Source of the DNA: Owenia fusiformis
Lineage: Eukaryota > Annelida > Polychaeta > Sabellida > Oweniidae
NCBI GenBank assembly: GCA_903813345.2
Contig: CAIIXF020000007.1
Coordinates: 38,610,671-38,674,670 of the forward strand
Length of the DNA stretch: 64,000 nt
Direction: 5' to 3'
Shown: positions 6,257-50,619 of the stretch, one piece after another
How positions within the stretch are numbered: position 1 is the stretch's first letter
Layout: each line of letters begins with the position of its first letter
The notes under the pieces: generated by a model
Told to the model about the DNA's origin: nothing
Databases searched by the model: none
The model's input: the letters and a program-made list of their open reading frames with translations, nothing else
Translations under genes and position numbers: made by a program

Positions 6257-9200
6257 GTAAGTACAACGGTTTTTGATTCATCGAATTTGCGCTGCTCGTT
6301 GTCAATTCTGCTGATTTTGAAATATAAAAAAAACAGAATGACGACTGTTTTTTCTGTAAACATTAAAGCTTTTGAAAATAGTCAGATAGTTATTAATAAA
6401 TTACATTTTTACATTTACAAGTTTCCCAAGTCTTGCTCTTTATTTTTTGGATTTTATGAACCCCGCTTCATTATTCATATCAACAAAGAATGTTTTGTGT
6501 AAATGGTGCCGTGTAAATTACAGACTGATCTGAACATTGTATAAAAACGTTGGAGACACCGTAAAATAAAGAGATATGTCTCCCATTGACGACAGATACA
6601 TCTCACTCTATCTCTTTGTTTTGAGGGGGTTCAATAGGCATATTTCTGAAAGTTTCTGCTGAGATCACACAATTTCATTTTAACCAAAGGAATGAACTAG
6701 AAACTAAAACAAACAGAGGGGATAAATAATGATAAATATATTTATTCATCTAGGTACATTGGTGAATTGTTTCGCTGATCCATGTGAAGGATCCAAACCA
6801 AAATGTCCGGCATGTCAAGCTGCAACTTGTCAGTAAGGCATTAGTATTATAAATGGACAATTTGTTTAATATATTAATAGCTAGGAGGCAGCACTTGTGT
6901 TGGTAGGGCCAGAATGCAAGTCATGACATGGACATAACATGAGATAAGACCTCTATAATTTTGTTGACATTCGAATTGTGCTTAAAGGGTGACGCATAGC
7001 CTTGCCCAAGTCGGTATTTTTTTTACTTATCTGATCTTGAATTATTACCGCCTTGTACAATCCAATACATCTCTGCTGTTATTATGCTCAAATATTCAAC
7101 GGTTTCGAGATTTCCATAATATCTACGCTATCAGGGGTATCGCGAAACCTTATTGATTGACAGATGTCGCGTGGACACGACGCGTGACTTCAGGCTGAAT
7201 GTCCAATCAAAACGTTATTAGGTTGAGCTGCATAAACAAAACAAACTTCCCATCTACGACTTGAAATTCAATGATATGATCGAGTGTTTCTTTAGAGTTA
7301 CAATATATTCATCCTCCGATCACAGGGCTTCAAAATCCAGATTATTCTTTCTTTTTACCCCCTGCGATAGGCAGTTAGCATTTCCCCGATTAAGAACTCG
7401 CAATCTGATTGGCTGTCGCAATACTGCGACAGAAATCATGTACAAGTCATTGCACATAATAAGATCACGTGATTCATTTTAATCGAGCGCTTCCAAATTG
7501 GTTATTGCAGGGGGAAGAAGGAGGTATGGATTGTGGACACCTGCTTAGGAGGATGCAATATATTATGTTATTAAATGTATATTGGAAGGTAAGAGTCATT
7601 AATATAAATTAAAACATGCGATTCAATGTTGATTTAAAACTGATTTCGCGATGAAAATGCACGAAGACCTCGTCCTATGTAGCGGGTCATGTTGTCGTCG
7701 ATCGGTGATTTAATCTCAGCCTACATGTTCACTGGGGGGTATCGTGATGCAACAACACCGTGTTGTTGCATCAAGATGGCCAGACATCCGGTGTTAGATT
7801 TTCGTACGATATTTTGTTTCCCAATTTAAACCCATTTCTAGGACGAGTTTCTCAATCAACCATACACGTGCAGTTAGCGCACGATCTATATTTAAAGAAA
7901 TTGTCATTAGTATACATGTAGCATCATCAAGAAGCAATAAGTTCACGGTTTTAGTTCCTCACTATTGATGCAACAACACCAAACCGAAGATGCAACAACA
8001 CTCCTCTAGATTTGAGCAATGATGCAGCAACACCAATTAATAGTATAATTTCAGAAGACCATAAATCTCGAGAGGAACAGATTTTTAAATGCTACGATTG
8101 CGACACCGTTACCCATTACCCATTTGCGTTCTTCTCAAGGCATTCAAAATACACGTCCTGCGGGCGAAGATTCTTTACATATATTTTCAAAAATTTATAC
8201 TTTTAAATATCATAATGTACTGGACGTTGTTCTATAACATAGTTCAATCGCCTTTAACATGGCAAGCTACAGTAACCCAATCTATTTTCATAAACCACTG
8301 TTCCATAGCTTGATGACCCTGACTCCATTTAGTATCATTCAAAATGGTGGACAAACATCTTTCGTTCTCGGTAAACATGACGAGCTATTGGAAATTATCT
8401 GTCATCCATCTGTAGAACAGTGATAAACTAGATATAGTAGATGTACGTTACCACTGTTTATAAAAATATAGCTAAAACAGTTTCACTGTAACATTCGTGA
8501 GCTTATCGGAGAACATTTCAAAAAGCATGTTAATGAGATGATTGCTTCATCTATGATATGATATGATTCTTTATTTCCTCCAATTTGGAGAGCCAACGAG
8601 TAAAAACGTCTAATTGACTTTATTAGAAAGGCCGTTTAGTTACACGTTTAATGGAAATCTTGCACAGTGCACATGTAGAAGTATTGTTCTCTGTGGATTC
8701 GTTCTCTCCGACTAAGTAAAAAGGTAAACAAAAGTGATAGGATTTAGGGCCCAAAAAGGTAAACTGATAGGGGTACAGTAATCCCAGATTCCCCCCGGGC
8801 CCTCGGGACATATCATATTGTCTCTCGGAATAAAACCAATATTGAATCCCTCTTAGTAAATAACCTCTATATAATAGCATTGTATAACTGCAATATCATT
8901 AAACCAACACTCATCCTATACAACTCTTGAGAACGATGTACAACTCCTGGATAGCGTACACGACTCCTGAGCAGCGTATACAACTCTTCAACTTGATAAA
9001 TGACGTCATACTTAGGGTGGGATAACAAAGGATATACAATATATAGGGGTTATGCACTGGGAGGTTTTGGATACAGGGAATATCCTGAGGGATATACAAT
9101 ATATCTTCCCGAGGGACCGAAGGGACCGAGGGAAGATGTATTGTATATCCCAAGGGATATTCCATGTATCCAAACCCACCGTGCATAACTGGTGTATCTC

Positions 9201-12200
9201 ATACTTGAGTGGGTTTAGGGTAGATATAACCTTTTCCACCTTTTTCAAATGACAAGATATTTATATTTAACATTTTCGTAATATTCTTTCGTTCAATACA
9301 ATGAAATTGTAACATTTAAACTTAAAAAATTTAAATTTTAAAATTAAAAAATTAAAACTTTTGATATTTAAACTTTTTTAAACTTTTGAAAAATTCCCGG
9401 GAGCGGGATGGATATATTATATCTGCCCGCATTTGGCCTGGAGCGGGACATATACAATATATCCTGCCCGCTCCTCAGATATGATATATATTCCCGAGTG
9501 ATATCTACCCCAAACCCACTTAAGTATGAGATACACAATTGGAGACCTCTCTTGAGGTCAACTGTCAAAATTGTATACCGATACTGTAAACCTTGAAAGT
9601 TCTGTTGACCGAGACCGGAGATCTAGGTCAACAGTACTCTCAGTGTTTACTGTTGAGGTATACACTTTGGTCAGTTGACCAAATAGAGAGGTGAACAATT
9701 GTTTGTTAGTCCGAAGAATATAATAATTGGACGAATATATAATCGAATATCAAGTGAACATATTTGATAAGTAAAAGTATCATATTTTAGCAAAAAATCT
9801 CAAAACCGTCGAATACTTGTAATTTTTTACACAACTTATTTTTTCAAAATTAAAAAAATCAACATTCAAAAAACATTTTTTCAAAAGTAGCGGTCAACAG
9901 TACCTAGTAGCGGTCAGCAGTACATATTGTTGACCGCTCATCAACCAATCAGAAATGAGTATTTCAATTGAGGTACAAACAACACAAAATGACTGATATC
10001 TGTTGTCTTTCCATGATTATATTAGTTATTTGTATACAATTTCCATACGGTAAATCAAGGGCATTTAATTTAGAAAATGTTCGTATAATAATCTTTATTT
10101 TTCAGATACAAATACATTAAGAAACCAAACAAAATACGTTTCATTCATGGACCACGGACTCAAGCGTTTTATTCATGTCCCGACCAACACCTGCAAACGG
10201 GACATAAAACAGTTTCTCTTGTTGTTCAATGATACATTATATTGGCGTTTTTGCATCAGCACATTGGAGTTATTGTATCATCGATAATAAACAGAGTGGT
10301 GTTGTTGCATCAATAGTGAGGAATTAAAACCGCGAATTTATAGCTTCTTGATGATGCTTACTCCCGTCGAGAGCTACTTAGATTTTGAAAGTATAGCTCT
10401 CTATCGCTAGAATCAACAGCTTAAGAATCCTGACTTCAAAGAAAATTTCAGGGAATTCAGCTGACTCATGTTGCACATTATATACCTGAAAATGTATCCT
10501 ACATCGCCATCTTTCATTCAGCTCAACTATAGAACGTCTCACTGCCCTATGTATCGATCAGGACTTCATTTTATTGGTCGTGTCAAAAGTTTTGGCCAGG
10601 TATATTCAATATGGCGGCTTGACGTTTCCCAAGTTGCGCATGCGTCGATAGTATTTCCGTTTAACCGCCATATTGGAAATGGGTATCGAACAATAAACGA
10701 TTAGAACTCCTGATCGCCATAGAAGCACATCCGCGATCCTACATGCACGGGGAAAGTAGACACATATGAGCCCATAATGTAGGCTACAGTTTGAGACAAA
10801 CAGCAAGCCGTTGACTGGCGCTGATCAAAATTAGATGTCACAATTCTTCAGCTGGGAGATCCTCACGATGGAGAGCTATACTTTCAAAATCTAACATGGT
10901 AGCTCTCGACGTGAGTAAGATGATGCTACATGTATACTAACGACAGTTTTTCAAAATATAGATCATGCGCTAGCTGCATGTGTATGATTATTGAGCAACT
11001 CGTCCTAGAAATGGGTTTAAATTGGGAAAACAAAATATCGTTCGAAAATCGATCACCGGAAGTCTGGCCATCTTGATGCAACAACACGGTGTTGTTGCAT
11101 CACGATACCCCCAGTGATGTTCAGCGATCGTTTCAACGTTTATTGTTGAAATCTTCTCACCTTTGGTTATCCGATCGATGCCCCGGCATCCACTAAACTC
11201 TCATTAATATTTATCTGATAAAATATTTGTATTTTCATGATGAATTCGCGCTCAGATTCGTGCAAGACTTGTTCCTGAAAAGTCCCGATGAAAAGTGTAC
11301 TTGTGTTTTTGACCGTGCATAATAATGAGCTAACGCTACAGGGCCGTCGTTGATTGGTCAAATTTTACCGACATCAACAAACTGTCGGTAAAGCACGTGG
11401 CTTTCTCTTTGGTACAAGGCGGTCATAATAGAAATCAAGATAAGTAAAAGAGACCGACTTGGGCAAGGCTAGGTGACGCATAACGTTTAGCAAATCGAAC
11501 GCTCGTTTCTGGTGTTGCTCACCGTTTAGTATAAAAGGCCCGATCCCAGAATATATTTGTGTATAATAAGGAAAAATTGGCATCTAAATTTCCCCATAAC
11601 GTAATAGCACACAGCTTGGCATATGAAATATCCTACAAATGAAACAAAGCAAGACAAACCGGTTTCTAATACAAGGATTTATATTGGCTGTTGTACATGT
11701 ATTCTTTGATCGCAATCACTCTTTGGATAACGTTTTCAAAATCATTATAAACGGATTACTTTATCTCAAAGACAATTTCAATAAACTGGATTTTACAGAA
11801 CTCCCTTTATTTCTTAAAAATGGACTGATCCAGTTGATTCGCCTGGAGCCGCCATATTGTTTTTATACGGGATGCTAATCGGAACCCTTTAAACATTTAA
11901 ATGGTAGTCTTTCGAAACACTGTGGCTAGTCGATCTATGTGGATGCAGTCATTTATATGTAATGTATCGTGGGTACTCGCGTACATTATGGGGAATGGGA
12001 TCATTGCAAAAATATGACAGCAAATCGAGGTAAGTGATCTCAGAGTTTCTACTTAACATTGTGACTTGAAATCTTGCACACATATTCAATATACATAGTA
12101 TGACAATGTGTGAAAGTTTCAGCTACCATATTCCTGTTATAGGGAAGATATTTGAAAAACATTTCGTAAACGTCAACATATATGTATAAAATGGATGCAC

Positions 12201-15200
12201 CTATGTATCATTTGGATTCAGAACGGTAACAAATGGATGCTTTAATAAATTATACTTTTATCATGATGATTTATTTACTGATGGACAACTGGCCAGATTT
12301 TCTTTGTATCCATTGTTTGGATAAACATTCCTCATTCAGTAAAGTAATTAGCCACCCCATAACAAGTAGTCTAAAGGCACCCTCATGGAAAATTGAAAAT
12401 ACTAAATATAAACCCATCAACTGGAAAATGCCATTACAGATGAAATAAAGGACCCACGGTCCTGTGCTCACACAGTGTAGAACCTACAGAGGAATATATA
12501 TCCTAATTTATAAACAAAAGTATTGGTAAATATGAGATCAATTAAAGACGAGTCCTTTGTTGTTGGTCCAGATATGATTTGTTGTAGTCAAAAGAAAAAC
12601 TATGAATTTGACCTAGATTTTGACCTAGGCCTTTTAGTGTTCAAATTTTGAAGGAAAGTAGATTTTGAGGACGGCTTCTATTGTAGATTCTTATTAAGTT
12701 GGCTGCATCCAAGCTGTATCTAGTGTTGTGTTGTTACAATTGATAATTTTCTCAAGCCCCATTGACTTAACAGGGATACCAAAATAGCGATTCGGATTCC
12801 TTGGACAATTTTACACATATTTCATAACTTATACATTGAATTCCAAGAACTTTTTATTGTGACCTACTTTTCGGATGCCATATCTCAAAAACGATAAGAG
12901 TGATCAAAAACAACTTGCCTGTAGAGCTTAGCTTTTTTCCAAGGAACATGATTAAAAAACGGAGCAAAAATATTCAAGGACGACTGACAAAATTGAAAAA
13001 AGGACAAAGTACTGGATTTGACCTAGTTCTTGACCTTTGACCTGGTTTTAACCTGATTACACCCAGATCTGGACTTAAACCTTGACTTGGACCTGGACCT
13101 GGACTTGGACCTGGAAATGGACTGGACTGGTATTTTTTCAATCTTTTCTTCACTTCTCTTGACTTTCTATAAGGCTATCATCAGATCGATTTTTCTCGAA
13201 ATCTAAAAATCAGCAATTTCTCGGAAACTGGGCGAACTTGGGAAATGGCGATGATAGGTCAAATAGACATTATGGATATGCATAAAATGAATGTGGAAAT
13301 GACTCAATCCGAATAGCAGTTTTAATTTGTGCAGCCAATGTTGACAGACGGACGGACCAACGGACCGACGGACGGACGGACCAACGGACGGACGCCTGGT
13401 CGATCCCATAGTCTCACTGTGTGAGCCAAAAACTATGGTTTTATCGCTGATACTGTTAATTTGAAAAACGGGTCCATAACATGTAATGATGACAATGAAA
13501 ATGTTGAAATTAGGTACGCTAATGAAGTGAATTCAGAGCAAAAGACCCATCGACCCACTGGAATACCCACAAATCAAGTTTCATAGCCTTGCCAAAGTCG
13601 GTCTATTTTACTTATCTTGATTTCTATTATGACCGCCTTGTACCCAAGAGAAAGCCATGTGCTTTACAGACCCAATGTTTTTGTTGGTAAAATTTGACAA
13701 ATCAACGACGGCCCTACATTGCCGGACTAGGTCTTCGTGCATTTCCATCGCGAATTCAGTTTTGATTTTGAATCAACATTGAATTGCATGATTTCATTTA
13801 GACGAGTATTAATGACTGCTTACATTCCAATGTACATTTAATAACATAATATATTGTAACTCTCAAGAAACACTCGATCAGATCATTGAATTTCAAGTCC
13901 TAGACGGGTAGTTTGCTTTTTTAATGCAGGTCAACCTGATAACGTTTTGATTGGTCAATCAGCCTGAAGTCACACGTTGTGTCCATGTCCATATTGTCAA
14001 TCAATATGGTTTTGCGATACCCTTAGGTAGCCTAGGTATTATGGGAATCTCGGAACTGCTGAATAACTTAGCATAATATCAGCGATGATACATTGGATTG
14101 TACAAGGTGGTAATAATTCGAGATCAGATAAGTAAATAAATACCGACTTGGGCAAGGCTACCAGTTTCAGAGCCATTAACATTCCTTGAAGGTGACAATG
14201 AGCAGCCAACAGATGGACCATCCGTAAATCTTGATGATTTTTTCAGCTCAGCTGAACGAGCCTCCAGATTCCTTGAAACAAATGACCATCATTCAAGAAT
14301 AGTATTATCTATTTACAATTTTTTGAAATCGTGGTAAGTTGAATTTTTCCAATTACCAATATAGCATTATTATTGTTTTCGGAGACTGTGGATTAAAATA
14401 TTAAAAATACACACATTCAAAATGATTCAATTGAAACCTAGCCAGTCTGTTCAATGAATCCAATCAGAACGTCTACTAATCCACACGATGCATCATAATT
14501 AAATTGCTTTTTTAAAGCTGATATTTCATACCATAACTCCAAAAATATTATAGAACGCATTGTATTTGTATTTTACTTCACACAGACATATTTGTGTATG
14601 TGAAATAATTATAGTACTTGAATTTTTTATTCCCCATTACAAAGTAAACCTATGGCAAATTATACATACCTTCTCACAGTTATGAGTGAGATGATAAAAC
14701 TGAACGAGTGAACTCGTTTGAGTTATCTATTCTCCGTAAAAAGATCAGAGAATGTGTGTTTATAGCGTAGCTTTGGTTTTGTAAATCAATGAAGTATGAT
14801 ATACACGGATGAGTAAATATAGATTATTTAAACAGAAGTGCAAAATTCTTCCATTGAAAAGTACAGAGGCGGGTACTCACGAAACATTACATGTGCCTGA
14901 CTGCATCCACATAGATCGACTAGCCACAGTGTCGAAATGTAACTTTTAAAGATTATTAACATTTTGCCAATTTGGGATCCAACCCGACCTTTCTTCCACC
15001 ATTGGGTGCTATATTGTAATCAGTTTGTTGGGCTGTGGTGGTCGGTTGGTCTGTCGGGAAGACGGGTAGCTATAGGCAGGTGTCTAGATTGATCTGGTCT
15101 ACTCTTTTCACTAATCTGAACAAAGCCCGTATGACAAAGCCCGGAAGTTTTATAAATTATTGCAAACTTTAGAGAAATTAGTAACAAATTGACTAGTTTT

Positions 15201-18219: not shown

Positions 18220-18830
18220 AATACCAAGCCAGAAACAAACCCAAGTCCCATGTACATGATTCCCATATTTACATTTATATCATACCAATTTTCAAGCATC
18301 GTTAATACAAATACCGAATTTGCAATGCGTATAGAATATCTCTACGAGCACCTTTACATAATACCCATTTTCAAGCATCTTTAATACTAATATTGAAATT
18401 CGACCGAATTTACAATGCAGATTGGATACCTCCAGAAACAAACACGAGTCTTATGAATATGTTACCCATATTTACATTTATATTATACCAATTTTCAAGC
18501 ATCGTTAATACAAATACCGAATTTGCAATGCGTATAGAATATCTCTACGAGCACCTTTACATAATACCCATTTTCAAGCATCTTTAATACTAATATTGAA
18601 ATTCGACCAAATTTACCATGCAGATAGGATACCTCCAGAAACAAACACAAGTCTTATAATATGTTACCCATATTTACATTTATATTATACCCATTTTCAA
18701 ACATCGTTAATACTAATATCAAATTCGAGGGAATTTGCAATGCGTGTAGAATACCTTCAGAGTTCAGAAACAAAACACGAGCCTCGTGTATTTTTCACCT
18801 AATATCTATATCCATATTATACCAAGGGTT
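18220..18830. repeat. About 202-bp tandem repeat, nearly three copies
   Basis: CCCATATTTACATTTATAT recurs at about 18263, 18465 and 18667, a period near 202 bp. Each unit also contains an internal half-repeat around TTTTCAAGCATC. Small frames inside recur with the period and are not genes. Confidence 0.85.
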
Positions 18831-19026
18831 TTAAAAAGGGTTCCAAATCTGGTTCCGTAGGGTTGACTTATCTCTCTTTGATTGCCCTTCGCATAATATA
18901 GCTTCGGTGCATATGGATGGTTCTTTTGACATTGTATAAACTATGCATTTCCTAACAAACTTTTTGTTTCCGACTTATATCCCACAAAAGTTTAAGTCAA
19001 GCTAATGTGCCTATCTTATATCCTCA

Positions 19027-22000
19027 TTATTTCATTTCGAACATCTGGAGGATAGAGGTGAACTTATTCAAATATGCATCATCGATTTTCAAGCATCCAT
19101 CTCTGCTATCGTACGCGGGAATCGTGACGTTGCCCAACGTTATGTAACCAGAATGGGGCCCTTCATCATGGAAAACAGCTTCGTTACCAATCCATCCTAG
19201 AAAATACAGATGGCAATATTGAAAATCATGCAGACTTATAAAATATTGACATCTATCGCGAACAGTTTTTTTTGTATTAAGTTAAAACAGGATTGACGAT
19301 TGGTTGTTTCATTTTCAACATACCCATAATTCCACCGGCAGTTTTGGATAGACCTGTCTTTTCTGTGACACCAACGTTGAGAAATGGCGCACCTTTTGCT
19401 CGTCCTCTTCGTGTGATTACAAGTTCAATTGTATCATTTTTAAACAACAATTTTATTTGCTTTCTGTTGATGGTCATAAATCCGCTATCGAGTTTTACGG
19501 TCTTTTCTCTCCAGTTGAGTATCCTTTCCCCTTTAGATGTCACAAGTGTCGCTTCATCTGGGGAAATAGCAACATGATCACTTTCCCCTTTCACAACAAT
19601 TTGATCAATGAAATCAACGACGGATCCGAGGTCAATATCCTCATCTTCTACGAAGGTTGTTCTAATATCTAAAAGTATATAGAGGATATCCTATGATTTA
19701 TGAGTGATATGATTTTTATCCACGAATGGATAAAAAGCGAGCGTAGCGAGAGAGTGCAGATATCAATATCCATGAATGGATTAAAATCATATCACGAGTA
19801 AATCATAGGATGTTCTTTTTATTCCATAGTTAGATTCATCATCAGAATCGTCGGAAATTAAGTTATTTAATTCGAATTTCCAAACGATCCAGCGATGTTG
19901 ACACTTAGCCTCGTTTTGAGTCTGAAGTAGCAAAAATCCATAAACCATCGCATACGACGTCGTATGTCATGGCTAAAAAAACGTATGTTATGGTTAAGTG
20001 AAAATTTGTCAAAAATATCATATTTTACCACTGATTACAAAAATACTGTTTTTATTTTCACATGTTATCCTATGAATATCATGCTAACTATGGAATAAAT
20101 AGAGGATATCCTATGATTTATGAGTGATATGATTTTTATCCACGAATGGATATGATATCTGCACGAGCGAGCGTAGCGAGAGAGTGCAGATATCAATATC
20201 CATGAATGGATTAAAATCATATCACGAGTAAATCATAGGATGTTCTTTTTATTCCATAGTTAAAGTCATCGTCAGAATCGTCGGAAATTAAGTGATTTAA
20301 TTCGAATTTTCCAAACGATCCGGCGATGTTGACACTTAGCCTCGTTTTGAGTCTGAAGTAGCAAAAATCCATAAACCATCGCATACGACGTCGTATGTCA
20401 TGGCTAAAAAACCGTATGCTATGGTTAAGTGAAAATTTGTCAAAAATATCATATTTCACCACTGATTACAAAAATACCGTTTTTATTTTCACATGTTATC
20501 CTATGAATATCATGCTAACTATGGAATAAACATTGTTATTACAGTTTGAGTAGCATCCTTTCTATTAAACAGTTCATTCAACATTACATCAACTTACGTT
20601 TCAAGAATGATAGTGCTTGGTACCCACTTCATCTGGAACCCAAAATTAGTTTTTCTTTTTCTTTTTCTCGTTTTTCTTTTTAGCCCAAAATTAAAGTTGG
20701 TTGATTGAAGTACCATAGATAGATGCACTAACAAATTTTTTATTATTCCATAGTTAGCATGATATTCATTGGATAACATGTGAAAATAAAAACGGTATTT
20801 TTGTAATCAGTGGTAAAATATGATATTTTTGACAAATTTTCACTAAACCATAGCATACGGTTTTTTAGCCATGACATACGACGTCGTATGCGATGGTTAA
20901 TGGATTTTTGCTACTTCAGACTCAAAACGAGGCTAAGTGTCAACATCGCCGGATCGTTTGGAAAATTCGAATTAAATGACTTAATTTCCGACAATTCTGA
21001 TGATGACTTTAACTATTGAATAAAAAGAACATCCTATGATTTACTCGTGATATGATTTGAATCCACTCATGGATATTGATATCAGCACTCTCTCGCTACG
21101 CTCGCTCGTGCAGATATCATATCCATTCGTGGATAAAAATCATATCACTCATAAATCATAGGATATCCTCTATTTCTTACCAATCTCAAAATCAATGAAA
21201 ATGGTATTTTTTCGTGATCTTAGCCAGAAATGTAGTTTTACCAAGCTGGTGATATCGTCCAAAATGCATTTCTTACGCCATATAGTAAGTAAGCACGTAG
21301 GTAATCGCAGATAATTTTCTGATCCTGAAGACATGTGTATCTTATAGATATTTTAGATATTTTCCAATAACCTATGTGACCTTATATAATTCTTACCAAT
21401 CTCTTGGTCTCTAAAAAGGATGTACACAGATCCAGGTTGTCCAGCGAAGTCATAGCAAAGTCGTCTGTGGTGTGCACCCTGGATGGTCTGAGAAATATGA
21501 GGGTCCCCACATATCATTATGCCAGCTCCATTCCTTCTGCAGTTTGGCCTACTGGGGTCAGTGCAGTCGTTATTAGTTGTACAGCTTGGCTCTCTTGAGT
21601 TTTCTTATAGCAAATTATCAAATAAAATTAAAGAAACAGATACTTAAAAAGTTTATACACTTCACATTTGGAGTCCGAATCTACAATTACGTCATCAACA
21701 TCCACTGCACGACGAATGTCATGATTAATGATAAGCTCAACTGGACCACTCATCAGTAAACGTTCAGGGAAAATATCACGCCTATTAGGATAACTCTACA
21801 TACAACATACAACATACAACTCGTATACCTAACGTTTCTAACATTTAAGATTGCAACCAATATTACGGAGGCCCCTGTGTAGGCGTTTTGAATGGGCAAG
21901 TCATACGTCAAAGGTCAGATATAAACTCAGAAAGAGCCAACAGAAGAACACTGTCATAAAAAATATTTAAATAGAAAAAACGATTGATTCATTTACCTGG

Positions 22001-25000
22001 AATCCTTTCGAAGTAAAGCAAACCTTCGATACATATTGAAAATCTGCTCGTTGTCCCTGAATATAAAGACGCTGTAAAACAGACCTCGTCTTGCACACTA
22101 TGCATGATAGACCAGCATACAAAAGTGATTTCATTCACACAGCGCTGTTTGCATTCTTCAAGGGTGGAAATACCACCGTCAAGTCCCTCAATACCGATAC
22201 CAATACACATATTTGTGCCAAGGTCCATAAAATCGTTAGATGGAACTGCAAAAGTAATACAGTTTCAATATATAGAATACAGGTAAATCTACTATTACGT
22301 CATTAAACCTTAACAACGTCAAATAATAAATTAATTGCTATGGCAATATAACTTCATCCCACAAGCGATCTAGATTGAAGTTGCACATGTCTCTATTGAA
22401 GTTTTTATGTTTTCTAATGTGAATGGCTTCTCTTATCAACCTTTTGTTTCTGTTCCTTTCTGTGCTAACTATTTTATAATTGTTCCTATCAATTTCGTGG
22501 TCTTCTTGGAGAATATAATCTGTAATCGCTGATTTATTAAAGCTGTTAAAAGAATCTTTTTTATTGTTTCCAGTGTACAGACTCTTTTTCTTATCTGCTT
22601 CTGTTTTGTGATCCTTGATGCGAGTACCAAGAGGTCTACTTGTTTCTCCTATGTAACTTTTATTACAATTGTTGCATGGAACTTGATATACTACGTTCGC
22701 GTTGCACACAATTTGAGAAAATAACAGCTATATTATACGATTTGTCCGTAAAATATTGTTTTAATTACTGGATTCCCCTAAAATGTGCATTGTGATTTTG
22801 CGCAACAATGTCAGCTCATAAAAGTAGTCCCACATAGAAAATTTGAGACGGTGGAACAACATAAAATTATGAACTTTTATATTTTATCTAGTTGTTACGT
22901 TATTTGCAAATAGTCCGATATACAGTCGTTGTTCAGACATAGTTCAGTAAGTACTCTTTCTATAAATATCCTTTTTGAATGCATTTACTGTTGAGAAACA
23001 ACTGAACTGCGTCCAAAAAGTTGATATTTTTATAAAAAATGGCTGCCAAGAAAGATTAGAAAATATTTCAAACATATGGATAAAATGACTTATGACTTTG
23101 ATGATCGTAACAGGGATAATAAGTACATAACCTTAGAACCATAACTTATTTTGATCATTTAGACACCTGATATAGCCAGAAATGTTGATTATATATCTTC
23201 ATATTTCTCTACTTTTGGCATGTGTCATTCATGCAAAAATAAAAACAATGCAATTCCTGCATATTTCCTCAGCCAAAACAGCTGATTTTTAGCAGAGTTT
23301 GGCCCCGAGGACATATACAGTGCGTATCAAAAAACGCAACAGATTGTTATCTTAGAAAAGCACAAAACCAGTGATAACAGCATTGATTTCATCCAATGCA
23401 CCATAAACCCATGTGTCTCCTCTTTACAATGATATATCATTCATTGATATTTGGTCATGGTTGGGCGAGTAATCGTTCCATTTGCAAAGTTGGCCAAAAT
23501 TAGCTTTGGGCCAAGTTATAAAAGGCATCTACACTCCCCTCCATAAGTTTGGCAACCTTTTTCCCCCATTGAACTACGTGTTAAAGCCTCTTTACCTTTG
23601 AATTTTTATTTACTTAACCTGCGATGAAAATACTTATACCATTGATGGAAACATAATTTGACTTTAATTCCAATACCTCCAAATTTTCTTAATTTTTTTC
23701 CTCAATTACACTAGGTCGAAAATTGATGATAAATTTGATGAATTTTTGAAAATCGACATTCCCATGTTAACCAATGGGAAATGGTAGGTTTGCCGCAAGT
23801 CATATGACAGAATATCCATCCATCCGAGTCCTTGCAAAAAATACGAGTTAGGCAGGCAATTGAATTTGCTAACTTTATTTAACAAAAAATTGATATGTTT
23901 CTTCAGATTCAACAAAGTTATAGGGCTTTAAAGTCAAAATTGTTTTTCAAAAAACCTCTCCCATTGAAATAACACAGGAGGCGAAAAATTATTTTCAAAA
24001 ATGACTTTGAAGCGCTGTAACTTTAATATTCATCAAATAAACTAAACACTTAGTGTTCAAAGAAGTTAGACAATTCAATTTTCTATATAAAAATATTTTT
24101 TGCTGAATCTTTTACTGAAAAGATATCCTGATTTTTGATTTGCCCCGAACCCTCCATTTCCCATTGGATTACATGAGAATGACGATTTTCAAAAATTCAT
24201 CAAATTTATCATCAATTTTCGACCTATTGTAATTGAGAAAAAAAATTGAGAAAATTTGGAGGTATTGGAAATAAAGTCAAGTTACGTTTCCATTAATATC
24301 ATAAGTTATTTCATCGCCGGTTAAGTATTAACATTTAATACATGTAATACAACTGTGTGTATTTCATTTCTTTGATATACTTTTATCTTAGTCAGCACAG
24401 CTACACACTTCTATACTTACATATCAATATCATTTTTACAGACTAAATGGAACAAAGTAATGATAAACACATTCTGGAAGACCATGGGATGGATATGCCA
24501 GAATACCTTTCCGAGGAAAAAATACTAGATGAAGCCGAGCCTAGTATTTTTTTCGAGGATGATGTTTTTTAATACTTTAAAACGAAGCCATGCCAACTTC
24601 AATGGTGTGTATAGTAGGTTTAAGTGTATGTATTGTGGCCATTTGAGATATGTATGTAAAATTGAGACCAAGTACTTTCTAAATGTGCCATTTTAAGACA
24701 AAATCGCAAGAACATAGTCCCGCAAACTGGAACTTCTTTATTCGTTAATTTTCATCGGTGAAGCAAGGATTTTACCCTAAAAATGAGTCCCTATGTTGGC
24801 GTAGTGATATTTAAAAAAATCGAGACGCAAACCGTATAATGAATATAGTGTCAAGATGCAGGTTTTGTAAAGGGGAAGGCAGAAATATAGTCATTGTATG
24901 GGCTAATTCGTTCGAAAATGGCGATATGTACCCCAGAACTTGAATTTTGTGATTTTTCTCAATATTTTTCAATGATTTACCGTAGTGACACCTTATATGA

Positions 25001-26565: not shown

Positions 26566-26566
26566 T

Positions 26567-27745: not shown

Positions 27746-27749
27746 AGTA

Positions 27750-28024: not shown

Positions 28025-28190
28025 GTGAGTATGCAGCTATGTGCCAAAAACAAAGAGTTTAGCTACCACTGTCTTAAGATTTTCTTATAAAAATTATTGC
28101 TGGCGTGGTTCGGAGAAAAGATTGTGAAATGAAGCCATGATTGGTGACTGTCGTCTATATGTGTATTATTAATTTCTTCTGACTAACAAA

Positions 28191-28358
28191 ACAATTGTAG
28201 ACCTCTCCATTCGGTCAACCGTCAAAACCATATACCTCGACTGTAAACCTTGAAACTACTGTTGACCTCGACCTTCGGTCTCTGTCAACAGTAGTTTCTC
28301 GGTTTACAGTCTCGGTATACAATTTTGCCGGTTGACCTCTGGAGAGGTCAACAATTGT
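28191..28358. mobile_element. Hairpin MITE of the GGTCAAC family (copy 2)
   Basis: Ends ACAATTGTAGACCTCTCC and GGTCAACAATTGT; the body folds back through GACTGTAAACC and GGTTTACAGTC. It matches the element at 9535-9703. Confidence 0.8.
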
Positions 28359-28373
28359 ATACTGTACATGGAC

Positions 28374-28430
28374 CTTTGCCAAAATATGCAGACAATGAGG
28401 AAACAACAGCGCGCGAGGTTAAAGAAAATA
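28374..28430. repeat. Dispersed element, 3' part of the split copy
   Basis: It matches 52089-52140 (TTTGCCAAA, then GAGAAAACAACAGCG-like sequence). Together with 26466-26565 it reconstitutes one copy of the 52 kb element, separated by about 1.8 kb of insertions. Confidence 0.6.
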
Positions 28431-29513: not shown

Positions 29514-31139
29514 AAATGTGGTAGGCGTTTAGTGTTAAAAGTGTTCTGACAATTGTTTCTTATGTAACTTTTTATGCTGAATCCAAAAAACCATGTTGGC
29601 AAGCTGAAATATGATTATTTAACCCTTAAAATACCATGTTAGTCCCTCTACCCCCAAAATTCACCCCTATCAGGGAGAAAAAATTTGTCAACCTAAAATA
29701 ACTTTGATTTTATGGTTTTTGTAAGTGAAATACATGGACATTGTATAAAATAAACATTTAAAGTATGAATGATACGGATTACACTTAAGAAATTTGAATA
29801 AAAGCAAAAAGTATGTACCCAGGGGGCAAATTTATGACCCATTTTTTACTTTTCGTGTCATAACTTTTTTATTAGACAATGATGGATGCTAAAAAAATCC
29901 ATGTAAAAGGCTTAATACCTGGTCTACTAATCCTGCAAGAATCAAAGTAATTCCTCTGATAATTGCCTTGAAAAAAATTAGTGAATTTAAGAAAAAAATG
30001 ACATTTTAGCTGGGACTGATTTTATGTGTGACTATAACTGACCCCTATTGCTTTAACATTTATCCCTCTGTGTTCATATATTTGGCATTTTAGAATAAAT
30101 CTAAAATATAAAACTTATTTTAGCTAAGTTTTAGGAAGATTTAAGCTTTCTAGCATGTTCAAATATTAAAAATTCATGAAATATGATGTCTAAAATTGAT
30201 AAGTTATACGTATACCCTTGGAAGACCCTTATAATTTCTTATTTATGAACATATTTGTACCAATATTAGTTTTCTAGCTTAGACAAATAATGTATGATAT
30301 ATCCTGGCTTGGCTTTCTGGTGGTTTGAACAATCTTAGGTGTTATCATTGAAAATTCATTCTTAAATCACAGGTCTGCAATCGATTAAATTCAAGTAACA
30401 GGATCTTAAGAGGTTCTGGACAAATCATTTGATTCTGGACTTGACATATTTTTTTTCCAACGAAATCACATCCAAGGGTTGAATTTTTATTGGATATTTA
30501 GAGAGCGAGTCCTGTATTGATTTCAATAAAAAGGTTAAAATAGAACGCTATTTGAGAGTTAATCTAATACTTTCATTACATTGATAAATTAAGGCAAATT
30601 CTGAAAAATTTTAAAGTGCATTTTTTATGAAATATTATCCAAGTATTTAGATGAAACGGTCTTATTTAAATACAAATCATAACATGATGATATTTTTTCA
30701 TAAAATATTTCTTCAAGAAATTCAATTGAAGGCTCAAGATAAAACGAGCTAATTTAGGTGAAAACCCTTACATGATGATGTGTTTTCATGACATCTTTCA
30801 TAAAATTCCATCAAGGGGTGAAAATAAAATGATCGAATTTAAGTGATTTAAGGATCACGAGGATAGGTTTTCTTGGATATTTTCTATGAAATCCCATCCA
30901 GTGGTCAAGGTAAAATTTTTATTTGGTATATTTGGTCACGTGTTCGAACCCATAGAACCATATAGGAACGTCATTTTGAATGTTACGTGATAAATCCATA
31001 TAAGGCTTTTAGAACAATGTGGGGAAAGATGAGGGGAAACCCCTGACACCTGTTCACGATTTTATCCGAACGTTCATCGGATCATTTCGGTTTTTATGCA
31101 CTTCATTATTTTACCGAAGTTTGCCGATTTGATTCGTCG

Positions 31140-31490
31140 TATTTCGGAATATTGGGGACAATTTTATACTCCATAGGGAGTTTTTTTAATCTACTTCTTA
31201 TTACGAAGATTCCCGAACCTTGTTCGGATTAATCCGGATTTTCTGACCTACTTCATCTACCGAGATTTAACGAGTTTACATTCGGCTCATTTCGGAATCC
31301 TGGTGACAATTTTATACTCCATTGGAGTATTTTTGATCTACTTCTTATGACGAAGATTTCCGAACCTTGTTCGGATTAATCCGGATTTTCTGACCTACTT
31401 CATCTACCGAGATTTAACGAGTTTACATTCGTCTCATTTCGGAATCCTGGTGACAATTTTATACTCCATTGGAGTATTTTTGATCTACTT
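31140..31490. repeat. About 154-bp tandem repeat in the left arm
   Basis: TTTTATACTCCAT recurs at about 31163, 31308 and 31458 along with TTCGGATTAATCCGGATTTT. The mirrored version in the right arm is at about 40440-40830. Confidence 0.8.
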
Positions 31491-31549
31491 TTTCTGGATT
31501 TTGCCCTACTTATTATATCTTTACAAGAAGCAAATCAAAAAATTCGCCA

Positions 31550-31790
31550 TGAACGGGTCTCGATCGACTAACCTAGAGCATGGAAGCTAGGCACGTTAGC
31601 TATGAGGCTAACGTGCAACCGATACGAAAGGATAAAAGTATTATATATTTATACCGAGCGTCAATTCAAAATGATCTTCACTTTTGACTGCACGTAAATA
31701 CAACTCGTCAGTTGTATCCAGAATAGATGAACGCCTATGGTACTAGTGAATAACCAAGTCCCAGGCGAGTGGTTCGCACCCCACCGTGAT
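31550..31790. other. tRNA-derived segments in the inverted-repeat arm
   Basis: GGTTCGCACCCCACC (about 31773) resembles a pol III B box; in the right arm the same place reads GGTTCGTATCCCACC on the minus strand, a perfect B-box match. A second tRNA-like stretch (GTTAGCCTCATAGCTAACG, minus) lies near 31605. Neither folds into a convincing full tRNA, so these are probably SINE-type or relic sequences. Confidence 0.3.
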
Positions 31791-31833
31791 ATGTTATTTT
31801 TGCTTTTTTAATACGACAGAAAGGAGCAAGGTC

Positions 31834-37715: not shown

Positions 37716-38135
37716 GCTTGTATTCGCGAATGCCGCTAACGCCTGTCGGCTACCGGATAAACCTACTTTACTATTTTATGGGCAATTCATTAAAATATTA
37801 ATGGAATATTGTCAGGTTCTTTTCATATTTAAATGAGTCGCCCATAGAATGGTAGGTTAATCCGGAAGCTGAAATCTTCCATTCCCAAATCATAGTCTTA
37901 GCTTGTATTCGCAAATGCAACTAACGCCTGTCGGCTACCGGATTAACCTATTATTTTACTGGAAACTCATGTCAATACGAATAGTACCTGCCACTATTCC
38001 ATTCATATTTAAATGACTTTGTCATATTATACTGGGTTAATCAGGTAGCCGGAAGGCGTTAGTTGCATTCGCGAATATAAGGTTAGCTTGTATTCAATAA
38101 TGCAAGAAACGCCTGTCGGCTACCGGATTAAACTA
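37716..38135. mobile_element. Cluster of three related short hairpin MITEs
   Basis: GCCTGTCGGCTACCGGAT occurs at about 37741, 37926 and 38113, each next to TTGTATTCGC-type sequence. Inverse copies (GGTTAATCCGG, GGTTAATCAGGTAGCCGG) close the first two elements at about 37855 and 38036. The third is a partial end. Confidence 0.75.
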
Positions 38136-40099
38136 CCTCTGGAGACATCGGGATTTTAAAGCGGCGTGCAAAGCGTAATCGGGTACACCCCAGTTCTCCG
38201 AAACCCAGTTGTCCGAAACCCATTACTCCGAAAAATAAAGTCATAATTTACCAGAGAAAGCGGGGGGCGTAGCTTACTTAAACTTACGTCAGTTTCATGC
38301 CATGTATTTGGCCAAATTAATGGCATGGACGCATTCTGTTATTCATAGATCTCTCTCTCACTTTGAATTGCATCCATTGCATGGCGTTACCAGAATGGCA
38401 GGAACGGGAGATTTATTTTACATTGTGATTCTAAAAAAAGGTTATTAAAACACAATATATATTACGGAACAGTTTATCTTATCTTCTTCAATCTCTTTTA
38501 TATAGGCAAAATAAAATGAAACATTTTGAAACAGATAAAATAATTTATCGCATAGAACTTTAAGAATAAAACAGTATACAAATTACGTTGTCAAAATATT
38601 TCGTCGCATTTAATTTCTTAGTCTCGGTCTCTTATCAAATCGTAAAAGAATAAAACATTCTATACTTAATCACTTGGGATTTATGTTTCGGCATTCGTTT
38701 CAGGCATTTGTTTTTTATGTTCTTCTCCTGAAATGTATTTGTTTGACAATAATCAGAGAAAGTGCGTATACGTATAAATATGCCACGCAAACAAACGGGT
38801 GTGACTTCAATTTCTTGTCTGTCTGAGGACGTATTGGGAACGAGGTAGAATTAAAGAATTCTTATGAACGAGTCATGCAAGATACTAGAACTAGTAAAGT
38901 AATGTAAATGGATAAGTTAATTTCTGATGGATCTGGATATAATATATTTCAAAACTTTGTAAACACTAGATAACTTCATTTAGGCAGATATAGTATCTTG
39001 ATATATTTGGCTATCATGCGTTTAAAATACGTTCCTAAAACTATGAAGACGTTAGGTGAGAAATATTGCTATTGTACGTTCGAAAAGTATTTGGTTGTAT
39101 TTTGTAGTTCTCAAGTTACCCATGAACTTTCGTGGGCTAATTAACGTCTTGACTTAGCATATTTAGCCTAATTTTGCAATGATGTCAACGTGATTCAAAT
39201 GTTATGCTGTCGTGATTCGCAGAGGTTGCGACAAGATTCGTTTTACAACAGATGTAACTATGAGAACATGAAAGCTCATAATCCTGATTATGCAACCTTA
39301 TACAATCGTTATCTTTGGGACAAGAGCCCAAAAACAAGGTACTCGTGAACGAGAGTTGAATTTGCTCCGTGAACGATAGGATACGCTGTTCCCCACCAAC
39401 AAAATACAGACATATGCTTCAGTGTCCTCAACGCAGATTGTAGAGAACAAGAGAAAAAATGAAATATACTTTGCCATAACAGAATACTGTTAAAGTATTG
39501 TTTATTAAGTTTATTAAGTTTCACAAATAACTTTTAAATGCCTTCTTTACCGTCAACGGACACTCAAATAAATACACAATACAATGCAATGCAATGTAAT
39601 ACAACGCATTACAATACAAACTAAATTAGAGTATTTGTGCATAGCATTTTCCCCTTTTGTTTGAAGGATATTTTAAGAATAATTCCAGCGTTCGTACACA
39701 CCTGGAAATGTCAGGGTTTTGATTTAATTTTCCAAGTGCCTGAAATGTCAGAGAATTTTAAAATAAGGTCAAAAAGGGCCAAAGAGTCCGGGAATTTTGA
39801 AACTGTAGACATGTCATGGAAATGTCAGGGAAATTTGTATCAGTGTTGAAAAAATGATGTTCCAGAAAAATAAATTTTAGGACTATGACAGGATCTCAAT
39901 GAAATCCAAAATGTAACATTTAGTTGATTCCACACGGGGCGTGTACATTGTCTAACATATATCTAAAAGGTTTACACTGTCTTGATTAATGAACTTCTTA
40001 GATCTAGTCGCGCTTCAGAAGTGGAAATCCTTCAATTATCAGAGGTTAATGTTTCTAAAACTGTATTGAAATAAACGTACGTCTTGTTTTCAAACCTGC
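38136..40099. other. Spacer, no supported gene
   Basis: It contains a triplet of TCCGAAACCCA-type motifs (about 38195-38230) and a short CAATA/CAATG-type microsatellite (about 39570-39625). No gene is visible. Confidence 0.45.
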
Positions 40100-41555
40100 A
40101 CCTTGCTCCTTTCTGTCGTATTAATAAAGCAAAAATAACATATCACGGTGGGATACGAACCACTCGCCTGGGATTTGGTTATTCACTAACACCATAGGCG
40201 TTCACCTATTCTGGATACAACTGACGAGTTGTATCTGAGTGGAGTCAAAAGCGAAGATCATTCTAAATTGACGCTCGGTATAAATATATGATACTTTTAT
40301 CATCTCACACAGGTGAACGTTAGCCTCATGGCTAGCGTGTTTAGCTTCCACTCCTTAGGTTAGTCGATCGAAACCCGTTCATGGCGAACTTTTTGATTTG
40401 CTTGCTGTCAACTTATAATAAGTAGGGCAAAATCCAGAAAAAGTAGATCAAAAATACTCCAATGGAGTATAAAATTGTCACCAGGATTCCGAAATGAGAC
40501 GAATGTTAACTCGTTAAATCTCGGTAGATAAAGTAGGTCAGAAAATCCGGATTAATCCGAACTGATTCGGGAATCTTCGTCATAAGAAGTAGATCAAAAA
40601 TCCAGAGAAGTAGATCAAAAATACTCCAATGGAGTATAAAATTGTCACCAGGATTCCGAAATGAGCCGAATGTAAACTCGTTAAATCTCGGTAGATGAAG
40701 TAGGTCAGAAAATCCGGATTAATCCGAACAAGGTTCGGGAATCTTCGTAATAAGAAGTAGATTAAAAAAACTCCCTATGGAGTATAAAATTGTCCCCAAT
40801 ATTCCGAAATACGACGAATCGAATCGGCAAACTTCGGTAAAATAATGAAGTGCATAAAAACCGAAATGATCCGATGAACGTTCGGATAAAATCGTGAACA
40901 GGTGTCAGGGGTTTCCCCTCATCTTTCCCCACATTGTTCTAAAAGCCTTATATGGATTTATCACGTAACATTCAAAATGACGTTCCTATATGGTTCTATG
41001 GGTTCGAACACGTGACCAAATATACCAAATAAAAATTTTACCTTGACCACTGGATGGGATTTCATAGAAAATATCCAAGAAAACCTATCCTCGTGATCCT
41101 TAAATCACTTAAATTCGATCATTTTATTTTCACCCCTTGATGGAATTTTATGAAAGAAGTCATGAAAACACATCATCATGTAAGGGTTTTCACCTAAATT
41201 AGCTCGTTTTATCTTGAGCCTTCAATTGAATTTCTTGAAGAAATATTTTATGAAAAAATATCATCATGTTATGATTTGTATTTAAATAAGACCGTTTCAT
41301 CTAAATACTTGGATAATATTTCATAAAAAATGCACTTTAAAATTTTTCAGAATTTGCCTTAATTTATCAATGTAATGAAAGTATTAGATTAACTCTCAAA
41401 TAGCGTTCTATTTTAACCTTTTTATTGAAATCAATACAGGACTCGCTCTCTAAATATCCAATAAAAATTCAACCCTTGGATGTGATTTCGTTGGAAAAAA
41501 AATATGTCAAGTCCAGAATCAAATGATTTGTCCAGAACCTCTTAAGATCCTGTTA

Positions 41556-44500
41556 AGTATATTATTAGCCTAGTATCATTCTACTGGTATGGTACAGGGT
41601 GTCCAAAAAACAGGACCGAAGAAAAGTTAATTAACTTTGTCAATCCTGCATATTCTGCCTCAAAACTTCAGAATTGTTCAGTTCATTCAATATGAATTTT
41701 GTTGTGAAAGTTTCATGATAATCTGCATGTGGAGTCAAAAACTACAGCACTTTACAACATATGTCCATTGTGGCCACTTCTCCTCTACATGCACAATCAA
41801 ATCTGGCAAAGGAAGTTGTTCAATTGTCCATGGCTTCATCAGAAGCTTTGCAATCCATGTTGGTATGTGTAGGAGAGTCATCAACAGCTTCGTTGGCTGG
41901 AGTGGTGGCCACATGGGGCATGTGTTGTAAAATGCTGTAGTTTTTTACTTTATAAGCAGATTGTCATTAAATGTTCACAACAAAATTCACATTAAACGTA
42001 GTAAATAATTCTGAAATATTAAAGCAAAATATGCAAGGTTGACCAAAATAAACCATCTAAGAGGCTTAATCATTGAAAATCATTACAAATAAAGGTCTAA
42101 ACAGACAGTATAAAGGTACACTATTAGAATACCCTTATTATTTCCAGGCTTAGAGTTTATTGGTACCTACTACTGTTTCATAGCTCGGAGGTTTAATATA
42201 TGATATATCCTGACTAGTTTTTCTGCAGATTTGAACCAATGACAGGTCTAATCATTGATTATACTTCATATACTAGGTCTAAAATTGAAGTATTCAATAG
42301 AACCCTCTATGAAAATTCAAAAAAAGATTCAAAATGACATTAACCTCAACATTAGATCTGAATAAGGATTAAAATCCTTCATAGAGCAGAACAGGGAAGA
42401 CAAGACTAACTTCATACTGGTGTTGATACATGGACCTGGTCCAAATCTTGCTATACTTCATCCAAGCCCAAAGAAAGGGAAATTAGGAGCTTCATCTCAA
42501 TGCATTTCAATGCATGATCCCTTATTTCATGACCACCATAATTATGGAAGGTGTGGCACAGTAAACTTAGAGGAAATGCAGTAACTATTAGAATATAGTA
42601 CCTGCTGCAGTTGAGCGAGGATTCTTGCATTGAACTATGTGGTAAAAGGCTCTACAAATTCAATCAACCAAGTTGATTGACCCCTATGCCAGTATGCTAT
42701 TGGTTAGAAGGGTGGCAGAATTGTAGGCATAACACAAATACAATATCTGCAGATGGGCACCGGGGTTTAATCTTAGGTCACACATGGGGAGTCCAAACAA
42801 GAATGATGTTTGGACTTGCGTTTTGAGATTCCATAGAGGGGGGGGGGGTGGTAATTTGCAAATCAAAACAAGAATCTATGGATATATAAGCACAAATGCC
42901 AAAGAGAAGGTTGACTAAAAACATTAAAGAAACCCAACAAGAAAAGCAAACCGCAAGTGCAAATCTGTCATAAGAAAAGTAGACTCTATATATCCCAAAA
43001 CCATAATCTAACGTGAAAAGAAACAATGTCTAACATTCCCCTCCCCCTCCAATCGAGAACCAATATCACAATCCAGGACCAGAACACCAAGGGACATTTC
43101 ATTCATACTGAAGTCATTACAATACATGTTGAAGAAAAATTGAAAAAATTGATAGCCAATACTCATAACATCAAAAATAGTTGTAGATACTAGTACTCAT
43201 AAAAGATAGAGTATTCAGTCTCTGGAAGAAGATAAAATATGTGACATGCTGCTGAAGTTTGGCATGTTTTCAGAAGATTCATTACTTAATCTCCAAAGTA
43301 TATGTACAAAAGATGTACTCACAGAAACAATCAACAGGCTCGACAGTTTGGCCAACAACAACTGGATGTCTTTGTGTCTTAGAGGTTGATACCAACAGGG
43401 TCAAATGAAAGACACAACATTTCTTGATCTACTGAGCAAGCACCAACATTTTTTAAACTATATGCCTAATCCCAATATAAACGAGCAGAAAGTTGTTAAG
43501 GCAGACAGGAATGTTTTGCAGAATCTTATCACTGCATATGAAGCTAACCACAGACCTGTGGGCATCAATGAAATCATGAAACATGAGCTGATGTCTTTTC
43601 CAATAGCCCTCTCATTGACGAATGAAACATTCAAGCCAACTCAAATGTACTCTACTCCTTAACTGTTTAACAAATGGTATTGAAATGCCAACCGTAATAT
43701 TTCCAATATATGATCCTTCTTACAAATTAGCATCAATTGCATCTACATCTGAGGATTTGGCTACAGTCTTCAAGGAAGCAAAACTTCAGCAGTGAAGTGT
43801 ACTGTGCCCCATCTTGCATACTTTTGGTGGTCATGAAAAAGGGGATCATGCATTGAAATACATTGAGATGAAGCTCCCAATTTCCCTTTCTTTGGGCTAT
43901 GGTGAAGCGTATCAAGATTTGGACCATGTCCATGTATTACTACCAGAATGAAAAGTAATCCTTGTCTTCCTTGTTCAGCTCTATGAAGGATTGTCATTCT
44001 GATTTACAAGAGTCATCCGAGATCACATCAATCAGTTGCTTTATTTGATTTCCAGATCCAATGTTGTGGTTAATGTCATTCTGAATCTTTTTTGAATTTC
44101 CCATATATGGTCCTATTGGATTTAAATTTCAAAAATTGCTACTCTGCAAAAACTCTCATTAACTGAAACATCCCACTAATTCAAAATGTTGTCAAAGTGA
44201 GTATACGCCATTTGTCAAGAATTTCTGACTTAACTCCAAGAGTAACACAGAAAGGTTAATGGGAACAGTGGGGGGGGGATTTTTTAATATGACTTAACAT
44301 TGTTCGGGGAAGAAAACTCCATAAAATGAAGATTTGTATGAATCATTGGTACTTTTGCTCTCACGTCATGCAATTGTCAGGCTGCTTAGAATGAAATAAG
44401 CCTTGTCTTCCTAGTTCAGCTCTTTGAAGAATTGTAATTCTGATTCAGATCCAGTGTTGAGGTTAATGTCATTCTGAATCTTTTTTGAATTTATCATAGA

Positions 44501-44870
44501 GGGTTCTATTGAATACTTCAATTTTAGACCTAGTATATTAAGTATATTCAATGATTAGACCTGTTAGGTGGTTCAAATCTGCAGAAAAACTAGTCAGAAT
44601 ATGTCATATATCAAACCTCCGAGCTATGAGACAGTAGTAGGTACCAATATACTCTAAGCCTGGAATTAATAAGGGTGTTCTAATAGTCTACCTTAATACT
44701 GTCCGTTTAGGCCTTTATTTGTAATGGTTTTCAATGATTAGGCCTCTTAGATGGTTAAAATCACCAGAAAGTCAGCTTGGAATATGTCATACATCAAAAA
44801 ACTAATCTATGAAATCATAGCTAGTTCAATTATGCTCATACCAGTAGAATGATACTAATGGTATACATAA
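41556..44870. mobile_element. 3.3-kb inverted-repeat element inserted in the right arm
   Basis: TAGTATCATTCTACTGGTAT (from 41571) is mirrored at 44837-44857. The left arm lacks this block, which proves insertion. Longer inner arms pair at about 42168-42358 against 44456-44660, and about 42424-42565 pairs with 43790-43945. It carries decayed coding sequence (see 43246-43660). Exact target duplication is unclear. Confidence 0.8.
43246..43662 (+). pseudogene. Decayed fragment of a multi-copy invertebrate protein
   Basis: One frame (about 43246-43390) reads L-L-K-F-G-M-F-S-E-D-S-L-L-N-L. After a shift, 43405-43662 reads K-V-V-K-A-D-R-N-V-L, then E-I-M-K-H-E-L-M-S-F-P-I-A-L-S. The ADRN and HxL-x-PxAL landmarks in this order recall a large family of uncharacterised, transposon-like proteins common in cnidarian and mollusc genomes. 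It is frameshifted and stopped. The match is from memory of the pattern, not a search. Confidence 0.45.
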
Positions 44871-45854
44871 ATTTAATAGATTGCAGACCTATGATTTAAG
44901 AATGAATTTTCAATGATAACACTTAAAAGATTGTTCAAACCACCAGAAAGCCAAGCCAGGATATATCATACATCATTTCTCTAAGCTAGAAAATTAATAT
45001 TGGTACAAATATGTTCATAAATAAGAAATTATAAGGGTCTTCCAAGGGTATACGTATAACTTATCAATTTTAGACATCATATTTCATGAATTTTTAATAG
45101 TTGAACATGATAAAAAGCTTAAATCTTCCTAAAACTTTGCTAAAATAAGTTTTATATTTTAGATTTATTCTAAAATGCTAAATACATGAACACAGAGGGA
45201 TAAATGTTAAAGCAATAGGGGTCAGTTATAGTCACACATAAAATCAGTCCCAGCTAAAATGTCATTTTTTCTTAAATTCACTAATTTTTTTCAAGGCAAT
45301 TATCAAAGGAATTACTTTGATTCTTGCAGGATTAGTAGACCAGGTATTATGCCTTTTACATGGATTTTTTTAGCATCCATCATTGTCTAATAAAAAAGTT
45401 ATGACACGAAAAGTAAAAAATGGGTCATAAATTTGCCCCCTGGAGTACATACTTTTTGCTTTTATTCAAATTTCTTAAGGGTAATCCGTATCATTCATAC
45501 TTCAAATGTTTATATTATACAATGTCCATGTATTTCACTTACAAAAACCATAAAATCAAAGTTACTTTAGGTTGAAGAATTTTTTCCCCCTGATAGGGGT
45601 CAATTTTGGGGGTAGGGGGACTAACATGGTATTTTAAGGGTTAAATAATCATATTTCAGCTTGCCAACATGGTTTTTTGGATTCAGCATAAAAAGTTACA
45701 TAGGAAACACTTGTCAGAACACTTTTAACACTAAACGCCTACCACATTTTACAGAGAGACCTTTTGCAGAAAAGCACCCGGTCTATTATGAAATAGAGGA
45801 GGTTGGCTGTTCTCGTCCTGTAAGATGTTTCCTGATTTAAACACACGTCCTGAA

Positions 45855-46080
45855 TGTCACGGGGAAAGTGATGCCAAAACACCGTGTTTTGGCATCAAGA
45901 TGGCCAAGCTTCCGATGATGGATTTTCGAAAGATATTTTGTTTTCCCATTCAAGATTACTAATATAAGTATATTTTGATTGATTTGTGAGGTATGTATCA
46001 CTTCCTGTGAAAATGTGAATTTTTTTTATCTGTCTTAGAAAATGTCTCCAGAATGTATAAACCCAACTTGGCAGATGTCC
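45855..46080. mobile_element. Solo end related to the 7730-11116 element
   Basis: It starts GTCACGGGGAAAGTGATG and carries a 27-bp palindrome followed by AAGATGGCC and GATATTTTGTTTTCCCA, in the same order as the tip at 7730-7840. The palindrome arms here are GATGCCAAAACAC and GTGTTTTGGCATC. No opposite end was found. Confidence 0.7.
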
Positions 46081-50615: not shown

Positions 50616-50619
50616 TTTT

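Follow-up and report, generated by a model that had tools for sequence, protein, structure and literature searches.

Palindromic subterminal sites, subfamily-specific motifs and the homogenisation of palindrome arms have each been described already. The ends of piggyBac carry identical 19-bp palindromes, and the cysteine-rich domains of the piggyBat dimer are placed on an imperfect palindrome (PMC11707139). Soybean CACTA elements contain a motif that is repeated both directly and in inverted orientation and so forms palindromes, and two subfamilies differ in the whole motif by 6 bases (PMC2613891). The wider CACTA-Mirage-Chapaev-Transib group is delimited by CA..TG ends and duplications of 2-5 bp (PMC12730594); for Transib a 5-bp duplication is given as typical, and TransibSU is listed with 13-bp inverted repeats (PMC4411706). 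The locus compared with these systems here lies in a stretch of 64,000 nucleotides (the window) from the annelid Owenia fusiformis (GCA_903813345.2, contig CAIIXF020000007.1, positions 38,610,671 to 38,674,670 of the forward strand), which contains a DNA transposon copy, E1, and one end of a related element, E2. A perfect palindrome lies near both ends of E1 and near the end of E2, and the E1 and E2 versions differ symmetrically in their two arms. With moderate confidence it is proposed that this palindrome is a subterminal transposase-binding site of a cut-and-paste DNA transposon family, and that the motif within it changed as a whole from one subfamily to another.

The palindromes and the elements that carry them

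The preliminary description of the window recorded perfect palindromes at 7746 and about 45870, and both were recovered; with an outer T/A pair each measures 29 bp and consists of perfect 14-bp arms around a 1-bp centre (Table 1). That description overlooked a third copy, which is inverted and lies at the opposite end of the element holding the 7745 copy, as well as single, unpaired occurrences of the arm. The 7745 and 11074 palindromes are thus the two ends of the single element E1, and together with E2 there are three palindromes across two elements, which fall into only two sequence classes. AAGATGGCC directly adjoins each of them, and the three perfect occurrences of AAGATGGCC in the window are exactly these neighbours. 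Read from the terminus inwards the centre base is C in 3/3 ends, two of which come from one element. With minisatellite stretches excluded, the window holds four palindromes with arms of at least 12 bp and a spacer of 0-1 (the three copies and an unrelated one at 60498-60527), and 20 resamples drawn from a first-order Markov model of the window contained none.

E1 has the terminal inverted repeats (252/251 bp) and the target-site duplication (ATGTT at both ends) of a class II element. The inverted repeats end exactly at CACTGGGG / CCCAGTG, and the identical 5-bp flanks directly abut these ends; 5 bp were common to 30 of 20000 random point pairs. Moving the end by one base gives a 3-bp duplication, TGT, and the length was therefore taken as 5 bp from the longer match. 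Of the 211 columns outside the motif, 18 hold substitutions between the left and right repeats and 3 hold gaps. The transposase of a class II element was not recognised in E1, where the longest stop-free frame is 95 amino acids. A Pfam scan of the 10 longest of the 53 E1 pieces of at least 35 amino acids returned no family at the curated cut-off, the best matches among these 10 (E 0.066 and 0.21) lying well under the family cut-offs. A non-autonomous transposon copy is expected to lack a transposase and, given the short frames and the lack of a Pfam family at cut-off, E1 looks non-autonomous or decayed.

E2 is similar to the E1 ends over about 96 bp, starting at its CACGGGG terminus. No partner end was found in the window, either as a second terminus match with at most 3 mismatches or as GTG followed by the 5-bp left flank of E2. 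Past 45953 no homology to the inner repeat of E1 was detected (local scores of 25 and 24, against 31 and 35 as the highest from shuffling), and in a sensitive profile search nothing passed the inclusion threshold except the three ends and the same ends read in reverse.

A 13-mer unit, paired and unpaired

The palindrome arm is the 13-mer GATGCAACAACAC, which also occurs singly and unpaired deeper in both ends of E1. The window contains 11 matches to it with at most 2 mismatches, nine in the E1 ends and two in the E2 palindrome. The units lie 16, 30, 237, 259 and 291 bp from the left terminus of E1 and 15, 29, 236 and 290 bp from the right terminus, so that two unpaired positions, A (237/236) and C (291/290), are mirrored between the ends. 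The palindrome and unit A show 0/42 differences between the left and right ends of E1, compared with 21/211 in the rest of the repeat (chance of none 0.012). Inside the border of the repeat, unit C is alike at 10/13 positions compared with 12/41 in the A-C spacer (p 0.0005 against the spacer rate). Because unit A is unchanged and unit C is alike past the repeat border, the 13-mer is seen as what is kept; to judge from these sequences, constraint looks to act on the 13-mer in either state and not on the hairpin alone. The unpaired units of E1 belong to the same class as its paired arms, and at position 8 of the right-hand unit C the base is that of class 2 (GATGCAAAAACGC).

Symmetric change of the arms

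Arm positions 6 (A/C) and 8 (C/A) distinguish class 1 from class 2, and all 4 changes are compensated. Between the 7745 and 45869 copies, 11/13 arm columns are the same, 2 are compensated and 0 are one-sided, which agrees with the earlier claim that two arm bases differ and that both are matched in the other arm. The probability that 4 changes in 26 arm positions form two matched pairs is 0.00058 by counting, and in simulations with exactly four changes all were paired in 41/83652, 47/70684 and 51/84875 cases (0.0005-0.0007); as the palindrome was picked post hoc from the whole window, these probabilities overstate the surprise.

Palindromic repeats elsewhere in the window served as controls in four comparisons (Table 1), in which the columns counted were those that had changed and were paired in one copy or both. 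Only 3/31 such columns were symmetric, compared with 2/2 in the palindrome (Fisher p 0.019), although the controls are few, two have a copy in common and they are longer than the palindrome studied or have looser stems. Columns unpaired in both copies were left out (they make up most of the remaining 11, 12 and 9 columns in the first three comparisons), as were 2, 4 and 18 gap columns, and smaller control sets gave Fisher values of 0.023 (3/28 variable columns) and 0.018 (3/32). One control, at 60498-60527, is itself a perfect 30-bp palindrome, and its relative about 280 bp away (60219-60248) has four one-sided changes. The simulations and controls uphold the earlier expectation that unconstrained decay would not give matched arms.

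A candidate binding site and its alternatives

In the proposed mechanism the arm would be a 13-bp binding motif. Near the ends, 16 bp inside the terminus, two copies in head-to-head orientation would be occupied by a transposase dimer, and further single sites some 240-290 bp inside the element may be bound as well. All copies of the motif would have to suit one protein and the motif would hence have diverged as a unit between subfamilies; the matched changes of the arms may then be explained by the need of each copy to fit that same protein. By analogy, head-to-head 13-mers combined with single internal sites would be an arrangement known from several superfamilies. It may further be suggested, although this is doubtful, that the two classes reflect a shifted DNA specificity of the transposase. 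Paired and unpaired units would then have moved together at positions 6 and 8, leaving subfamilies unable to use each other's ends, and the right-hand unit C (GATGCAAAAACGC) would be a surviving intermediate.

Several observations weigh against the binding site. The two E1 palindromes are identical, and there is therefore only one independent comparison, and it holds two changed pairs; the refuting condition of the preliminary description, only two classes by chance descent, may still apply. The palindromes of E1 and E2 differ at 4/29 positions, compared with 8/56 in the inner flank of the right end or 11/55 in that of the left end, whereas a site kept to suit one protein should change less than its flank; the palindrome changed as much as the flank, and it is thus the symmetry that was kept and not the sequence. 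Unit B, at 259 bp, has no mirror other than a doubtful right-hand match at 268 bp with 4 mismatches, and no transposase was recognised in E1. No unpaired 13-mer of E2's own class occurs in the 3 kb downstream of E2, which either lost its unpaired units or never had them.

Symmetry kept without sequence is the outcome of template switching between the arms as well as of a shifted protein specificity. In the former case one mutated arm would have been copied onto the other by a replication template switch, with no need for selection, which is considered a possible though rather unlikely origin of the palindrome difference. Template switching can introduce several compensatory stem changes in one event (PMC8794818) and homogenises the arms of inverted repeats (PMC8604942). 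It agrees with a palindrome that changes at the rate of its flank, has an ideal substrate in arms with a 1-bp gap, and accounts for the symmetry about as well as a binding motif does. Quasipalindrome correction of this kind resembles the present case in its matched arm changes but is a mutation process that does not predict matching unpaired units, and it leaves unexplained why such units agree with the arms and are conserved from one E1 end to the other. The control palindromes in the window were not homogenised (though they are longer or wider), and template switching often inverts the spacer, of which the constant centre C gives no sign, an argument that is weak with two of the three ends from one element. 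Selection keeping the arms matched is put slightly ahead of templating.

The preliminary description had offered selection for a hairpin or a dimeric site, or repair templated by one arm; the dimeric site and templating are both live explanations, whereas a functional hairpin gains no special support, the 13-mer being kept unpaired. A DNA or RNA hairpin under selection (a cruciform, an extruded end or a processed RNA) would suit the stem of 13-14 bp, perfect around its 1-bp centre in 3/3 ends, yet single copies of the 13-mer are retained where local pairing is impossible and no Rfam family reached its gathering score across the window, which makes this explanation improbable. It is very improbable that the two classes are old and matched by chance, be it through separate origins of the palindrome in each lineage or as a coincidence singled out in reading 64 kb of sequence. 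Such an account could appeal to the existence of two classes only, to the post hoc choice and to the single sequence comparison, but the pairing probability is about 0.0005 given four changes, and the common position, flank and AAGATGGCC mark one homologous palindrome feature.

Placement among DNA transposons

The Transib-type terminus is a 7-bp sequence resembling CACWRTG. Set against this consensus, E1 (CACTGGG) and E2 (CACGGGG) fit in the first three bases and not clearly in the others. By its CACTG..CAGTG ends and 5-bp duplication E1 has the CA..TG termini and the 2-5 bp duplication of the CACTA-Mirage-Chapaev-Transib group, and the duplication length of Transib, as the cited sources define them. 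It differs from Transib in its 252-bp repeat (13 bp in TransibSU) and its CACTGGG start. The CACTA/EnSpm elements (maize Spm/En with TNPA; soybean Tgm1 and Tgmt*) are alike in their CAC.. termini, a repeated subterminal motif and the divergence of the whole motif between subfamilies within a species, but they have a 3-bp duplication and 13-bp tip repeats where E1 has 5 bp and 252 bp. A plain CACTA/EnSpm element was rejected: the flanks of E1 at CACTG share 5 bp, and the 3-bp readings, GTT and ATG, differ.

The duplication made by piggyBac is TTAA, and that of E1, ATGTT, sets it apart. The piggyBac and piggyBat transposons share with E1 palindromic sites near the ends, which in those systems are bound by a transposase dimer; the piggyBac palindromes are 19 bp long and asymmetrically placed, unlike those of E1. 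Helitrons have neither inverted repeats nor a duplication and carry a hairpin before CTRR. E1, with its long inverted repeats and duplication, is no Helitron. It fits the CACTA-Mirage-Chapaev-Transib group by its ends and duplication and, as no transposase is recognised in it, is assigned to no superfamily.

Pattern scans of viral contigs for further copies gave 0 matches. A scan of genome contigs returned 39 stretches, all in prokaryote records, with only 0-5/13 arm positions complementary at the palindrome geometry in 39/39; these were rejected as chance or coding matches. The E1/E2 family was not found in the literature when searched by arm and terminus strings, the papers listed being off topic by their titles.

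Table 1 Coordinates in the window of the elements, their motif copies and the control palindromes
Feature	Position	Strand	Remarks
E1, DNA transposon copy	7730..11116	.	3387 bp; CACTG..CAGTG ends; no recognised transposase
Left target-site duplication ATGTT	7725..7729	+	adjoins E1 left end
Right target-site duplication ATGTT	11117..11121	+	adjoins E1 right end
E1 left terminal inverted repeat	7730..7981	+	252 bp
E1 right terminal inverted repeat	10297..11116	-	251 bp without the 561-bp insert 10358-10918 and its 8-bp duplication
E1 left palindrome	7745..7773	.	class 1 arms
E1 right palindrome	11074..11102	.	class 1 arms; identical to left palindrome
Unpaired unit A, left end	7967..7979	+	exact; 237 bp in
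Unpaired unit B, left end	7989..8001	+	exact; 259 bp in
Unpaired unit C, left end	8021..8033	+	1 mismatch; 291 bp in
Unpaired unit A, right end	10299..10311	-	exact; 236 bp in, not counting the insert
Unpaired unit C, right end	10245..10257	-	2 mismatches; 290 bp in
E2, one 96-bp end of related element	45858..45953	+	CACGGGG terminus
E2 palindrome	45869..45897	.	class 2 arms (GATGCCAAAACAC)
Control comparison	9535-9702 / 28191-28358		18 columns, 3 symmetric
Control comparisons (two, one copy in common)	19683-21164		3 and 6 columns, 0 symmetric
Control comparison	60498-60527 / 60219-60248		4 columns, 0 symmetric

Other features of the window

The right inverted repeat of E1 is interrupted by an insert of 561 bp with inverted, TTACTCCCGTCGAGAGCTAC-like ends, flanked at 10350-10357 and 10919-10926 by a duplication of its own (8 bp, GATGATGC); this is a separate, younger, hAT-like small element. 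E1 is in turn nested in an interrupted copy (6997-11471) of another inverted-repeat element, of which a shorter reverse copy lies at 13584-14160. An exact empty site for E1 was not found, this other copy of the surrounding repeat being shorter in the middle.

A stretch holding an EFHB-like EF-hand reading frame, which marks the host as an animal, and a 30-bp-type minisatellite is present at both 1-2875 and 54854-58257, about 55.3 kb apart and with 95.6-98.9% identity; this reflects either a recent duplication or the joining of two haplotypes during assembly. Large inverted repeats of 95-97% identity are formed by 29514-31832 and 40100-45749, the right side being in pieces, and 22702-23322 is repeated at 61231-61856 (93%). 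Minus-strand reading frames at 22338-22727 and 50811-51236 match GIY-YIG (E 8e-05) and reverse transcriptase (E 5.8e-13), respectively. Finally, an array of diverged repeats at 48600-50630 is rich in ACCATGGTA half-palindromes, and contains, at 48900-49800, an inset inverted-repeat element roughly 0.9 kb long.

Significance

E1 and E2 belong to a worn-out transposon family in an animal genome, with the palindrome as its probable transposase-binding site, and at present they amount to an ordinary transposon end and a small sample. Should many copies agree, the family would provide a natural series for following the joint change of a transposase-binding motif and the palindrome that it forms. 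Selection on a dimer site would then be separable from copying between the arms, since a single element carries the same 13-mer with and without a partner.

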